From a bacterium (lineage in GTDB: Bacteria > Patescibacteriota > Minisyncoccia > Phycocordibacterales > JAUSHB01): 42,458 nucleotides of DNA. Positions 7,443 through 32,512 of the stretch are shown here, piece by piece. Location of the stretch: assembly GCA_030648955.1 (NCBI GenBank), contig JAUSHB010000016.1:1-42458 (forward strand), written 5' to 3'. The first letter of the stretch is position 1. The number at the start of each line of letters is the position of its first letter. The position numbers and the translations under genes were made by a program. The notes beneath the pieces are model-generated. The model did not search any database, was not told where the DNA came from, and was given only the letters and a program-made list of their open reading frames with translations.

Positions 7443-7913
7443 TTATTTAATGTCGATAATCTTATAGGTTGTTTTTCCGCCCGGTGTATCAAACGAAACC
7501 GTCTCGCCTTTGCCCTTGCCCAAGAGCGCCTCGCCAATCGGAGATTTATTTGAGATTTTCCCTCCTGCCATATCTGCTTCCTCTGATCCCACAATCTGGT
7601 ATTGGCGTGTTTGATTTTCACCTTCACGTTCTACGACTATCGCCGAGCCAATGCGCACAACGTCATCAGCTTTTTTCTTGGTGATAATAATCGCGGACGA
7701 TAAAATATTTTGAAGTTTTAAAATTCGTTCCTCGGTTCCCGCCTGATCTTCGCGAGCCTCTTGGTATTCCGCGTTTTCGGAAAGATCGCCGAGTGATTTT
7801 GCAAACTCAAGTTTCTCCGCAATTTCCTTTCTTCGTCCTGTCTTTAAAAATTCAAGTTCGCGAGTGAGCTCTTCGAGTTTTTCTTTCGTTAAATATTCTT
7901 TTTCTGATGCCAT
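7443..7913 (-). CDS. greA: Transcription elongation factor GreA
   Basis: GreA rescues backtracked RNA polymerase by stimulating cleavage of the nascent RNA. The 156-residue protein has the N-terminal coiled-coil hairpin (about 6-75) with the tip motif GDLSENAEY, whose acidic residues reach the polymerase active site. The C-terminal FKBP-like domain includes GGKISNKSPIGEALLGKGKG. Length is typical. It forms its own unit: a TTGACT-N17-TAGTAT promoter lies upstream and AGCTTC repeat clusters flank it on both sides. No clear ribosome-binding site precedes the ATG. Confidence 0.96.
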   Translation of the reverse strand: MASEKEYLTKEKLEELTRELEFLKTGRRKEIAEKLEFAKSLGDLSENAEYQEAREDQAGTEERILKLQNILSSAIIITKKKADDVVRIGSAIVVEREGENQTRQYQIVGSEEADMAGGKISNKSPIGEALLGKGKGETVSFDTPGGKTTYKIIDIK

Positions 7914-7952: not shown

Positions 7953-7981
7953 ATACTATCGGGGATGAGTAAAGAAGTCAA
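7953..7981 (-). promoter_or_regulatory. greA promoter
   Basis: On the minus strand TTGACT (7976-7981) and TAGTAT (7953-7958) are separated by exactly 17 bases, about 40 bases before the greA ATG. The TAGTAT -10 form is shared with several small genes further right. Confidence 0.75.
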
Positions 7982-7989
7982 ACAAACAA

Positions 7990-8105
7990 AAAGCTTCATG
8001 AGCTTCGAGAGCTTCGATGAAAGAGCTTCAGTAGCTTTTTGAAGACATGCAAAGGATTTGGAAGCAAAGCTTCCAAATCCCCCAAGCTCATGAAGCTATT
8101 GAAGC
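7990..8105. repeat. AGCTTC periodic repeat with central TTTGGAAGC palindrome (copy 2)
   Basis: The left half has AGCTTCATG, AGCTTCGAG, AGCTTCGAT, AGCTTCAGT and AGCTTTTTG, mostly 9 bases apart. The right half has AAGCTCATG, AAGCTATTG and AAGCTT. Between them is a perfect 12-base-pair hairpin, GGATTTGGAAGC-AAA-GCTTCCAAATCC (8054-8080). The right half runs into the mrdA stop codon. The whole region can form one long branched hairpin. Confidence 0.8.
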
Positions 8106-20083: not shown

Positions 20084-21997
20084 ATGAAGATCGTTAATGT
20101 AATACCACTTGCAAAAGGCATATTCAGGGAACAGCTTTCCTATTTTACCTTGAAAGACGCTGTTCCTGGCTCAATTGTTTCCGTTCCCGTACGAGGAAGA
20201 ACGATAAATGCTTTGGTGGTTTCATCCAGAGATGTATCTGAAGAAAAAACAGCTATTAAGGCATCGTCCTACGCCATTAAAAAAGTTGACTTTTTAAGTA
20301 CTAAGAATTTTTTTGTACCCGGATTTATTGATGCGGCACGGAATGCGGGAGAATATTTTGCAACCACGACCGGAGATATCGTGAGAGTATTTACACCTCA
20401 AGCCATACTATCCCAATCCTCAAAAATTAACCCGGGCAACCAATTCTCCGCGGCGGCACGGAAAAAAGTTTCGGGACTTAAGCGAGAAAAATTTATTCTC
20501 CAACTTCCTGAGGAAGAACGACTCTCGACCTACAAAAGTCTTATTCGAGAGGAATTTGCCAAGAAATCGTCAGTATTTTTCTGTCTTCCCACAATTCAAG
20601 ATATAGAAACTGTCTTCCAATCCCTTGAACGGGGAATCGAAGAATACACCTTCGTACTCCACAGCGGTCTCTCAAAAAAAGAAATGCTTTCGCGATGGAA
20701 CAACATTGCTTCTCAAAAACATCCCGTACTTATTGTCGCAACTGCTACATTTCTCTCCATACCCCGCAGTGATATACACACCATTATATTGGATAAAGAA
20801 AATTCGCGCAGTTATAAAACATTTTCTCGTCCATATGTCGACATAAGAACATTTGCCGAATTTTTTTCTGAAAAGATTGGTGCGAGACTTATTTTTGGTG
20901 ATATCTTGTTGCGCCCCGAAACAATTTGGCGTCAGGAAGAAGGGGAATTCCAAGCGCTTGCTCCACTCAAATTCCGCTCTATTTCAACAGCAACACAATC
21001 TATCGTCGACATGAAGCAATATAAAAAAGATACCCTTCGTGGAACATGGAGTGTATTGAGCACGGAACTGCGTGAGCACGTCGAAGCGACCAAAAAAGAA
21101 AATAGCCACCTTTTTATCCTTGCTGGTCGCCGAGGTCTTTCCCCTATCACCGTATGCGGAGATTGTGGCGCAATTTTTACATGTACCCGTTGCAGTTCCC
21201 CCATGGTTCTTCACAAAAGCCTTGAAAATCAAAAAAATGTTTTTATGTGCCACAAATGTAGCACGATAATTTCTGCAGAAACTCGATGCAAGAAGTGTGA
21301 AAGTTGGCGCCTTACCGCACTTGGAGTCGGCATTGAAAAGGTGCATGAAGAATTGATGCGAGACTTTCCTAAGATTAAAATTTTCCGCATCGACAAAGAC
21401 ACAATAAAAAACCCCAAAAAGGCAATAGAAATTCGAAATCAATTTTATTCTTCTCCCGGAAGTATCCTCTTGGGAACTGGCATGGCACTTCACTATCTCA
21501 ACAAAAACATCGATACGATTGCCATTGTGGGAATTGACTCGCTTTTCGCGATGCCGGATTTTCGCATCAATGAAAAAATAATGAACTTTCTTTTACTTCT
21601 ACGAGAAAAAACAATGAAACATTTCCTGGTGCAAACAAGGAGTCCGGAAAAAAAGCTTTTTGAGTTCCTCACGCGTGGCAACTTGCTTGATTTTTATCGT
21701 GAAGAAATATCCGAGAGAAAAACATTCGGCTATCCCCCGTTTCAGATGCTTATCAAGATTACTTGGAGCGGAAAAAAAGCAAGTGCGAAGGAGGAAATGG
21801 AAAATCTTTCGGCACTTCTTTCTCCTTATGAACACCTTACCTATCCCGCGTTCATTCAGGAGGTTAAAGGACTTTATCGCATGAATACACTTATTAAGCT
21901 TGATCGTGGTATTTGGGTGGATAAGGAGCTTCTCCAGATTCTACGCTCAATTCCTCCATATTTTACAATCCAGATTGATCCGGAGGACATTCTTTAA
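20084..21997 (+). CDS. priA: PriA-like primosomal protein N' lacking ATPase motifs
   Basis: PriA normally recognises stalled forks and reloads the replicative helicase. The 637-residue protein keeps the N-terminal 3'-DNA-binding domain (MKIVNVIPLAKGIFREQLSY), the GRRGLSP segment (349-355) and the zinc region with four cysteine pairs (358/361, 367/370, 389/392, 402/405). It also keeps ILLGTGMALHYLNKNIDTIA, MPDFRINEK and the C-terminal domain (FGYPPFQMLIKI). The helicase motifs are gone: the Walker A position reads LQLPEEERLS (about 139-148), the DEEH position reads DKEN (237-240), and the QVAGRAGR arginine-finger motif is absent. It is probably a DNA-binding, non-hydrolysing primosome factor, as described for actinobacterial PriA. 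Confidence 0.9.
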   Translation: MKIVNVIPLAKGIFREQLSYFTLKDAVPGSIVSVPVRGRTINALVVSSRDVSEEKTAIKASSYAIKKVDFLSTKNFFVPGFIDAARNAGEYFATTTGDIVRVFTPQAILSQSSKINPGNQFSAAARKKVSGLKREKFILQLPEEERLSTYKSLIREEFAKKSSVFFCLPTIQDIETVFQSLERGIEEYTFVLHSGLSKKEMLSRWNNIASQKHPVLIVATATFLSIPRSDIHTIILDKENSRSYKTFSRPYVDIRTFAEFFSEKIGARLIFGDILLRPETIWRQEEGEFQALAPLKFRSISTATQSIVDMKQYKKDTLRGTWSVLSTELREHVEATKKENSHLFILAGRRGLSPITVCGDCGAIFTCTRCSSPMVLHKSLENQKNVFMCHKCSTIISAETRCKKCESWRLTALGVGIEKVHEELMRDFPKIKIFRIDKDTIKNPKKAIEIRNQFYSSPGSILLGTGMALHYLNKNIDTIAIVGIDSLFAMPDFRINEKIMNFLLLLREKTMKHFLVQTRSPEKKLFEFLTRGNLLDFYREEISERKTFGYPPFQMLIKITWSGKKASAKEEMENLSALLSPYEHLTYPAFIQEVKGLYRMNTLIKLDRGIWVDKELLQILRSIPPYFTIQIDPEDIL

Positions 21998-22083
21998 ACT
22001 AATCTATTCAGAGACTACTACATACTGCGAAAATCTATACGGAGGTCGGACTTCCGTAGTGGACATCCGTAGTGATAGTGGCA

Positions 22084-22112
22084 TTGCTAAATTTATAGGG
22101 ATGTGATATCTT
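22084..22112 (+). promoter_or_regulatory. Promoter upstream of the RNA candidate
   Basis: TTGCTA (22084-22089) and TATCTT (22107-22112) are exactly 17 bases apart. They lie 85 bases after priA, and no reading frame begins downstream before the terminator at 22347. Confidence 0.5.
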
Positions 22113-22117
22113 ATCGC

Positions 22118-22386
22118 GAGCATAGAAGTACACCCCTTTAAAAGGTGGGGAGGTTCCCAGCAGGTGAATCGTATACTGTCGAAAAGCCCTGGATTGGGCA
22201 AAGGCACAAAATGGGTTGTGGTGTAATTATTGCCCACAATATCAGCGTGATGCTCCCCCGAATCTCTGGAAATAACCATGGCTTGGTAGAGGCCATTATT
22301 CTCAAAACAGAGATTCGAAACTGAGTTGCGCAGCGTGCTAACGGTCCCCCGGTTACTTTCACAAGTATGCCGGGGTTGTTTTTTAT
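22118..22386 (+). ncRNA. Candidate structured RNA of unknown family
   Basis: About 265 bases between a promoter-like site and a strong terminator contain several strong helices. GAATCTCT (22260-22267) pairs perfectly with AGAGATTC (22309-22316), enclosing ATGGC/GCCAT. TTGTGG pairs with CCACAA. GCCC-TGGATT-GGGC is a small hairpin. GGGGAG (22147-22152) can close over the first half with CTCCCC (22253-22258). No plausible coding frame exists on the plus strand. It does not match the conserved blocks I know of tmRNA, RNase P RNA or 4.5S RNA, and its multi-hairpin form is unlike 6S RNA. It could be a free RNA or an attenuating leader of def. Confidence 0.55.
22347..22386 (+). terminator. Intrinsic terminator between the RNA candidate and def
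   Basis: CCCCGG (22347-22352) pairs with CCGGGG (22370-22375), the inner TACTT-TCAC-AAGTA extends the stem, and TTGTTTTTT follows. It ends 36 bases before the def start. Confidence 0.88.
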
Positions 22387-22421
22387 ATATTTCATTATTG
22401 AATGTAGCATACAATAAAACT

Positions 22422-23012
22422 ATGCTAGAAATCGTACAAAAAGAACACGCCGTACTTCGCGGACACGCACAGGCCGTCCCTGTTGAGAAAATCGGGGGCG
22501 AGTACATAAAAAATGTACTCAAGGAAATGAAAACTGCTCTTGATGCGCAAGATGATGGTATTGCGATTGCCGCGCCGCAAATCAATATTCCTTTGCGGAT
22601 TTTTCTTGTGTCAAAAAAAATCCATAAAATTGAGCAGGAAGAACATGATGCACGCGTAAAAACACGGGCCGTGAAATTACCAGAGAACTCAACATCTCCA
22701 GATTATGAAAAAAAGAAAGATCTTGTATTTATAAACCCCGAAATTATTAAACTTTCTAAAAAAAAGTATTGGATCCCAGAAGGTTGCCTTTCGGTGAGAT
22801 GGCTCTATGGAAAGGTTTTTCGGTCAGACAAGGCGACGATACGAGCATACAATCAAAATGGAGAACGAATCACCCGCGGAGCAAGCGGTCTTCTCGCCCA
22901 GGTTTTTCAACATGAAACCGACCACCTCAACGGAATACTTTTTATTGATGTAGCAAAAGATTTAGAAGAAATACGTCCTGAAGAAATGGAAAAAATCACA
23001 CATGGAAAGTAG
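22422..23012 (+). CDS. def: Peptide deformylase
   Basis: Def removes the formyl group from nascent N-terminal methionine, the counterpart of Fmt encoded next to it. From the ATG at 22422 the protein has 196 residues with all three family motifs: GIAIAAPQ (46-53), EGCLSV (120-125) with the metal-binding cysteine, and QHETDH (163-168) with two metal-binding histidines. Between motifs 1 and 2 there is an unusually long lysine- and glutamate-rich insertion (about 64-100). TACAAT lies six bases before the ATG, so the mRNA may be leaderless. The frame is open further upstream, but that part overlaps the RNA terminator and lacks family sequence. Confidence 0.95.
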   Translation: MLEIVQKEHAVLRGHAQAVPVEKIGGEYIKNVLKEMKTALDAQDDGIAIAAPQINIPLRIFLVSKKIHKIEQEEHDARVKTRAVKLPENSTSPDYEKKKDLVFINPEIIKLSKKKYWIPEGCLSVRWLYGKVFRSDKATIRAYNQNGERITRGASGLLAQVFQHETDHLNGILFIDVAKDLEEIRPEEMEKITHGK

Positions 23013-23880
23013 TAAGCGAAACAAAGATTCGAGGATTGTATTTTGGGGAACTTCCTCTTTTTCCATAGGCGTTCTTGAAGCGCTTAAAGAAAACGGGTTT
23101 ATTCCTGACCTTATTGTTACCGCGCCCGACAAGCCAAGAGGACGTAAATTAATTGTCACCCCCCCGCCAGTAAAAATTTGGGCTCAAGAAAACAAAATTC
23201 CATTCATACAACCTGAAATCCTCAACGACTCCTTCATTGCCGACTTTAAGAACTTTACAAACTTGATGAACTTGAAACTGGCGGTTGTCGCTTCCTACGG
23301 AAAGATAATTCCGAAATCAATACTTGATATTCCAAAACATGGAACGCTCAACATTCATCCCTCCCTACTTCCCAAACTACGTGGCGCATCCCCCATCCAA
23401 AGCGCGATACTTACCGAAGATAAAACGGGGGTCACCATCATGCTCATTGACGAAAAAATGGATCACGGTCCGATCGTGGCGCAGAAGGAAATCACGATTT
23501 CTCCTTGGCCGCCTAAAGCAAGCGTACTTGAGCCAATGCTTGCACACGAGGGTGGAAAATTGCTTGCAGAAATAATACCTGGTTGGGTTTCAAAAAAGAT
23601 CACGGCGCGCGAACAGGAACACGACATCGCAACGTACACAAAAAAATTCACCAAAGAAGATGGGCTAATTGATCTCACGGGAGACCCAATGATGAATTTC
23701 AGAAAAATTCAGGCGTTTGATGTATGGCCGAAGGCATATTTTTTCACCGAGCGACATGGTAAAAAAATCCGTGTCACCATAATAGATGCCGAGCTTGTTG
23801 AAGAAAAACTCGTTATTAAAAAAGTTCTTCCGGAGGGGAAAAGAGAGATGCAATATGAGGATTTTTTGAGGGGAATATAA
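23002..23880 (+). CDS. fmt: Methionyl-tRNA formyltransferase
   Basis: Fmt formylates Met-tRNAi using 10-formyl-tetrahydrofolate. The 292-residue protein has the catalytic signature NIHPSLLPKLRGASPIQSAI (117-136) with the conserved Asn and His, and MDHGPI near 153-158 with the catalytic Asp. A short C-terminal OB-like domain follows (KTKKF.. type region TYTKKFTKEDGLIDL onwards). It is slightly shorter than E. coli Fmt (315). It starts 11 bases inside the end of def, so def-fmt is a coupled pair. Its stop codon directly abuts that of the convergent cyclophilin gene with no base between. Confidence 0.95.
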   Translation: MESSKRNKDSRIVFWGTSSFSIGVLEALKENGFIPDLIVTAPDKPRGRKLIVTPPPVKIWAQENKIPFIQPEILNDSFIADFKNFTNLMNLKLAVVASYGKIIPKSILDIPKHGTLNIHPSLLPKLRGASPIQSAILTEDKTGVTIMLIDEKMDHGPIVAQKEITISPWPPKASVLEPMLAHEGGKLLAEIIPGWVSKKITAREQEHDIATYTKKFTKEDGLIDLTGDPMMNFRKIQAFDVWPKAYFFTERHGKKIRVTIIDAELVEEKLVIKKVLPEGKREMQYEDFLRGI

Positions 23881-31699: not shown

Positions 31700-31711
31700 C
31701 CCCGGGCTCGA

Positions 31712-31751
31712 CCGCCAGACAGAAACCCGCTTCTGTCTGGTGGTTTCTTTT
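31712..31751 (+). terminator. Intrinsic terminator after the GNAT gene
   Basis: CCGCCAGACAGAA pairs with TTCTGTCTGGTGG with one G-T pair, followed by TTTCTTTTT. It is a member of the CCGCC-CAGAAA terminator family. Confidence 0.88.
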
Positions 31752-32285: not shown

Positions 32286-32468
32286 ATGTTCGACAATGAA
32301 GACGAGACACATTGTGATAACTCGGGGGAATGTGAAGCACCACGCGGTGCTCGTGACATTACCAACTGTATATATTGCGGCAAAGAATTACACGAGAAAG
32401 ACGGGGAATGGTTCACGTGGGATGCCGACATGTTCGAATCCACACAATCACAAGGTCCTGTGATATAA
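32286..32468 (+). CDS. Small acidic protein with a possible zinc ribbon
   Basis: The ATG at 32286 follows GGAG at a suitable distance and gives 60 residues. Cysteines at 10, 16, 28 and 31 include NCIYCGKELHEKDGEW, which looks like half of a zinc ribbon. The remainder is acidic (MFDNEDETHCDNSGECE, WDADMFES). No named family recognised. An overlapping frame from 32257 lacks this logic. The gene is a single unit between a TTGACG promoter and a strong terminator. Confidence 0.75.
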   Translation: MFDNEDETHCDNSGECEAPRGARDITNCIYCGKELHEKDGEWFTWDADMFESTQSQGPVI

Positions 32469-32512
32469 ACCGCCCAACAGAAACCGTTTCTACTTGGGCG
32501 GTTTCGTTTTTT
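32467..32512 (+). terminator. Intrinsic terminator, CCGCC-CAGAAA family
   Basis: AAACCGCCCAA and TTGGGCGGTTT pair around an inner AGAAACCGTTTCT stem, followed by CGTTTTTT. It overlaps the stop codon region of the preceding gene. Confidence 0.88.

Follow-up and report, generated by a model that had tools for sequence, protein, structure and literature searches.

Our analysis indicates that the segment at 22118-22386, between the housekeeping genes priA and def, is most likely a noncoding unit peculiar to its lineage. This unit would be an orphan small RNA or else belong to priA as its 3' UTR; it would end at a terminator and be uncoupled from the def-fmt pair. The segment lies in the window, the whole stretch of 42,458 nucleotides that was analysed, which is contig 16 in the 973-kb genome of an uncultured member of the Patescibacteria (G000; 972,032 of its 973,492 bases were covered in stretches). 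According to the explanation that we favour, to which we give a probability of about 0.6 as a whole, the 424-nt gap between the two genes would consist of a REP palindrome followed by the noncoding unit, inserted in this lineage. We regard the segment as probably ordinary and specific to its lineage, and not as a new riboswitch. The parts of this explanation that can be read from the sequence itself are the insertion, the REP palindrome, the noncoding character, the terminator, the hairpin and the -10 element of def; the features, in order of position, are as follows.

20084-21997, + strand: priA (primosomal helicase N', divergent), the upstream gene; open reading frame with a PriA 3'BD match and synteny with the priA-def loci of relatives.
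22015-22081, no strand assigned: GTAG-tagged REP palindrome with the core ACGGAGGTCGGACTTCCGTAGT (22039-22060) and flanking pairing arms; hairpin z -4.2, core repeated.
22084-22112, + strand: promoter candidate TTGCTA-N17-TATCTT (TTGCTA 22084-22089, TATCTT 22107-22112, extended -10 TG 22104-22105).
22118-22386, + strand: putative noncoding RNA (orphan small RNA or priA 3' UTR); noncoding, GC 48%, z -2.7 without the terminator, no homolog in 397 genomes of the order.
22259-22317, + strand: long hairpin whose arms CGAATCTCTG and CAGAGATTCG (22259-22268/22308-22317) form a perfect 10-bp inverted repeat; z -4.9.
22347-22384, + strand: intrinsic terminator of 12 pairs with one bulged base (stem 22347-22353/22369-22375 and 22354-22358/22363-22367), followed by the T tract TTGTTTTTT.
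22410-22415, + strand: def -10 element TACAAT, the best-scoring -10 in the insert (top 0.09% genome-wide), lying 6 nt upstream of the ATG; a leaderless def mRNA is expected.
22422-23012, + strand: def, peptide deformylase (PF01327, E 1.6e-40 for the longer reading frame 22326-23012).
23002-23880, + strand: fmt, methionyl-tRNA formyltransferase (PF00551/PF02911).

The insertion becomes apparent on comparison with relatives. Across the 36 priA-def loci with a placeable priA end, our own included, the gap has a median of about 41 nt and is shorter than 120 nt in 27. Since most relatives have such a short gap, the 424 nt found here read as a lineage-specific insertion. Long gaps inspected in other lineages carry unrelated cargo, and the junction repeatedly receives inserts; L115, L134 and L137, for example, have reverse-strand genes inside it. 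Two further loci were observed separately. In the 235-nt gap of L128 (G157), a Shine-Dalgarno-like site and a terminator accompany a 33-codon frame whose product would have one hydrophobic stretch and may be a small membrane protein. The 261-nt gap of L122 (G344) is occupied by another GC-rich, noncoding stretch, closed by a terminator and lacking an Rfam match, and several sampled members of the L122 family have short priA-def gaps. This stretch looked similar to 22118-22386 but was rejected as an analogue, as the two have no common sequence and no model match.

The noncoding unit itself has no detectable relatives in what was searched. Neither blastn nor a single-sequence covariance model returned a homolog in the 397 genomes of the order, the latter also finding none in the syntenic priA-def loci; a model built from one sequence has limited reach, and an RNA restricted to the family would escape this search, as the genomes compared contain no second member of the family to which this genome belongs. 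The best deformylase relatives in public genomes share about 50-58% identity and are mostly labelled Taylorbacteria or Patescibacteria. Against 384 genomes of the class, blastn gave no homolog of the putative RNA, and the REP core alone recurred. No match was obtained by blastn against phage and plasmid records or by exact-motif scans of the viral IMG/VR sequences. Apart from the REP core, the short blastn matches that we inspected are chance stretches within coding genes or terminator and T-rich sequence. The conserved structured RNA that the earlier note had envisaged is therefore not borne out, absence from relatives being the very observation that it had named as counting against this claim.

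The upstream element at 22015-22081 is separate from the putative RNA. It lacks a T-run and was ruled out as a terminator. GTAG-tagged REP elements are mobilised by RAYT transposases (PMC3733652), and by its sequence the element fits this class: it is a palindrome carrying the GTAG tag (22039-22060) and is repeated between genes, with three further copies of the core in the same genome (C5:605, C6:73773 and C9:10075). The core also occurs in other genomes of the class (including L109 and L110), and in two of these it adjoins RAYT-like reading frames, recognised by eye. It differs from the described elements (PMC3733652) in its low copy number here (4 found), and the likeness covers the REP alone, not the putative RNA.

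To characterize the fold of the unit we compared it with dinucleotide shuffles. With the terminator excluded (22118-22343) the folding z is -2.7, and among 59 random windows of 226 nt taken from this contig 4 score lower. The long hairpin, in which an inner hairpin AUGGCUU/AGGCCAU (22278-22284/22290-22296) is nested, stands out, a perfect 10-bp arm pair within 60 nt being seen in 0.6% of shuffles. The 5' part without it (22118-22257) reaches a z of -1.7. Of the "at least four good helices" described previously, the long hairpin and the terminator hold up and the others are not significant: the GGGGAG/CTCCCC helix has pair probabilities of 0.03-0.07 and competes with other pairings, the GAGCAU/AUGCUC helix forms only if the 3' half is omitted, and 6-bp complements are common in shuffles. 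Nearly all of the predicted folding signal thus comes from one hairpin and the terminator, and the remainder is at the level of unrelated sequence. The folding of a single sequence is weak evidence and not proof of function (PMC8250186); a covariation test needs homologs, and the fold given here rests on one sequence.

The strong terminator noted earlier is present (folding z -4.3 for 22344-22384), giving the segment the Rho-independent terminator of an intergenic small RNA, and a genome-wide scan found no other terminator after the priA stop. The promoter-like TTGCTA-N17-TATCTT reported before is likewise present, with the additional extended -10 TG, and in a -10 model trained on 105 putative leaderless promoters of this genome its TATCTT at 22107 scores in the top 0.36% of genome positions, yet four others in the insert rank above it. 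By chance alone, 424 nt should contain about 1.5 such matches, and a generic promoter scan gave no site in the region. The candidate promoter of the putative small RNA is a moderate extended -10 element which by itself is not better than chance.

We infer the transcription of the unit, its start point and any function as follows. Its transcription would begin at the extended -10 promoter (22104-22112) or would continue from priA, making it the 3' UTR of that gene, since the first terminator found downstream of priA is the one at 22347-22384; in both cases the transcript would end there. Its function, if any, would be that of a small RNA acting in trans or of a 3' UTR protecting the priA message. 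The unit would not control def, whose transcription would begin from a separate leaderless promoter immediately behind the terminator. The segment resembles bacterial small RNAs that lie between genes and end in a terminator, and RNAs derived from 3' UTRs, in being noncoding and in having a promoter-like site, hairpins and a Rho-independent terminator between two genes; it differs from them in having no homologs, target or Rfam family, its expression being putative. A search of the genome for antisense matches of at least 14 nt yielded no excess over shuffles. The small RNA proposed in the earlier note is a possible reading: the terminator, the hairpin and the noncoding character speak for it, the moderate promoter and the lack of a homolog against it. 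Gene calling in the genome is crude, and counts of orphan terminators were for this reason left out as evidence for other small RNAs. If expressed, the unit would add a small RNA of no known class to a reduced genome of the Patescibacteria; our few literature searches found no small-RNA study in this group. It is a rather doubtful proposition that it represents a new, narrowly distributed structured small RNA of one Patescibacteria family, which arrived beside the REP and took over the priA-def junction.

Among the alternatives, the one that survives best, although we hold it to be clearly the lesser possibility at about one chance in four, is a non-functional spacer, a decayed remnant of the insertion (REP plus lost cargo) in which the terminator of priA is the sole working part. 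The segment could be such a decaying spacer, transcribed incidentally only. The unrelated inserts that the junction repeatedly takes across the order (L115, L134, L137, L128, L122), the lack of a homolog in 397 genomes and the non-significant folding outside the hairpin and terminator are all consistent with this. Against it, the GC content of the segment (48%) is above the genome average (42%), a perfect 10-bp hairpin is retained, and neither a coding frame nor a known protein has left a trace.

A terminating leader of def-fmt, in which a ligand or a stalled ribosome chooses between terminator and readthrough, had also been proposed. The arrangement invites it: a promoter-like site, structure and a terminator follow one another ahead of def, whose start at 22422 lies, as described, 36 bases after 22386, and THF riboswitches and other folate or formyl-methionine leaders would share this location ahead of def-fmt. 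We nevertheless consider it improbable. The best -10 element of the insert lies six bases before the def ATG, and the genome-wide distribution of -10 distances peaks at 6 nt before the ATG. Such elements are enriched before def throughout the order: in 44 distinct def upstream regions, our own included, 26 have a -10 of at least 5/6 near the start codon, compared to 11.8 +/- 2.7 in shuffles (maximum among 1000 shuffles, 22). On this sequence evidence def most likely has a near-leaderless promoter to itself, located after the terminator, which counts against a riboswitch or attenuator. In addition, most relatives have def without any leader, no pairing of an antiterminator with the arms of the terminator has a probability as high as 0.3, and no Rfam leader family appears up to E 10 other than a chance-level atoC match (E 4.9) far below the cut-off. 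A leader would be expected to form a single unit with no separate def promoter and to have an aptamer fold conserved in several lineages; as far as the sequences indicate, the segment has neither property, and it differs from the THF-type leaders in having no model match and a def promoter below the terminator. The leader is accordingly disfavoured, and our preferred reading remains a noncoding unit uncoupled from def. In practical terms, priA-def sequence in this order should not be taken as a def leader, because def in the order appears to have its own near-leaderless promoter.

As an observation of its own, the genome shows an excess of -10 elements, with the TG extension, 6-11 nt before start codons. 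The extension occurs in 37 of the 105 putative leaderless promoters, against 6 expected, and 32 of them have a -35 scoring 4/6 or better, against 15 expected. Leaderless mRNAs therefore seem, from the sequence, to be common in this genome.

A short protein gene, for instance the 20-codon GTG frame at 22164 behind GGGGAGG, is more improbable still. The GGAGG lies 10 nt upstream of the GTG and L128 has a 33-aa ORF at the same junction; however, the Shine-Dalgarno spacing of this genome peaks at 6-8 nt and no frame of 22118-22386 has a coding score above shuffles. A hexamer model trained on this genome gives negative scores for the ORFs of 59 and 90 aa, and six-frame protein matches reveal no trace of a known protein in the stretch. 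The earlier view that it holds no plausible gene is confirmed by these scores. A resemblance of the 59-aa frame to a Cas6 C-terminus was rejected, the match being weak (Pfam E 0.013, below the cut-off; PADLOC E 0.0035) and the coding score negative.

Known RNA classes were assessed with the Rfam covariance search that had been put forward as a check, which returned no family for 22118-22386 at gathering cut-offs, nor up to E 10 apart from the chance-level atoC match. The statement that the segment is not tmRNA, RNase P RNA, SRP RNA or 6S RNA is in agreement with this. The tmRNA of the genome (RF00023) is located at C20:3298-3694 (121.6 bits), and RNase P RNA (RF00010) gives a 441-nt match at C18:22223-22663 (53.4 bits, below the cut-off, E 5e-16). 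The SRP RNA models (RF00169, RF01854) and the 6S model (RF00013) match neither here nor in the genome, the S-domain pattern occurs nowhere in the genome, and the predicted fold is multibranched and not the unbranched rod with a central bubble of 6S RNA. A highly diverged 6S or SRP RNA, for which it speaks that the Rfam models find no other in the genome, is very improbable, given that neither model matches the stretch even at E 10, that the fold is not the 6S rod, that a universal RNA should occur in relatives and none was found, and that the genome has neither the S-domain pattern nor an Ffh/FtsY GTPase, so that no SRP RNA is expected.

A limited literature search found no paper on an order without SRP. 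Across 60 genomes (this one and order relatives) SRP RNA was found in none, and the SRP54-type GTPase (Ffh/FtsY, PF00448) went undetected in 58, this genome included, with two weak matches; it was found in 14 of 14 control genomes. Based on these sequence searches, the signal recognition particle may be missing from the order. Elsewhere in the window, the intergenic region at 7960-8090 consists of nested AGCTTC/GAAGCT inverted repeats and folds very strongly (z -7.5 for the 226-nt window at 7912), and two terminators with related stems (CAGAAACC...) lie about 750 nt apart at 31710-31745 and 32467-32504.
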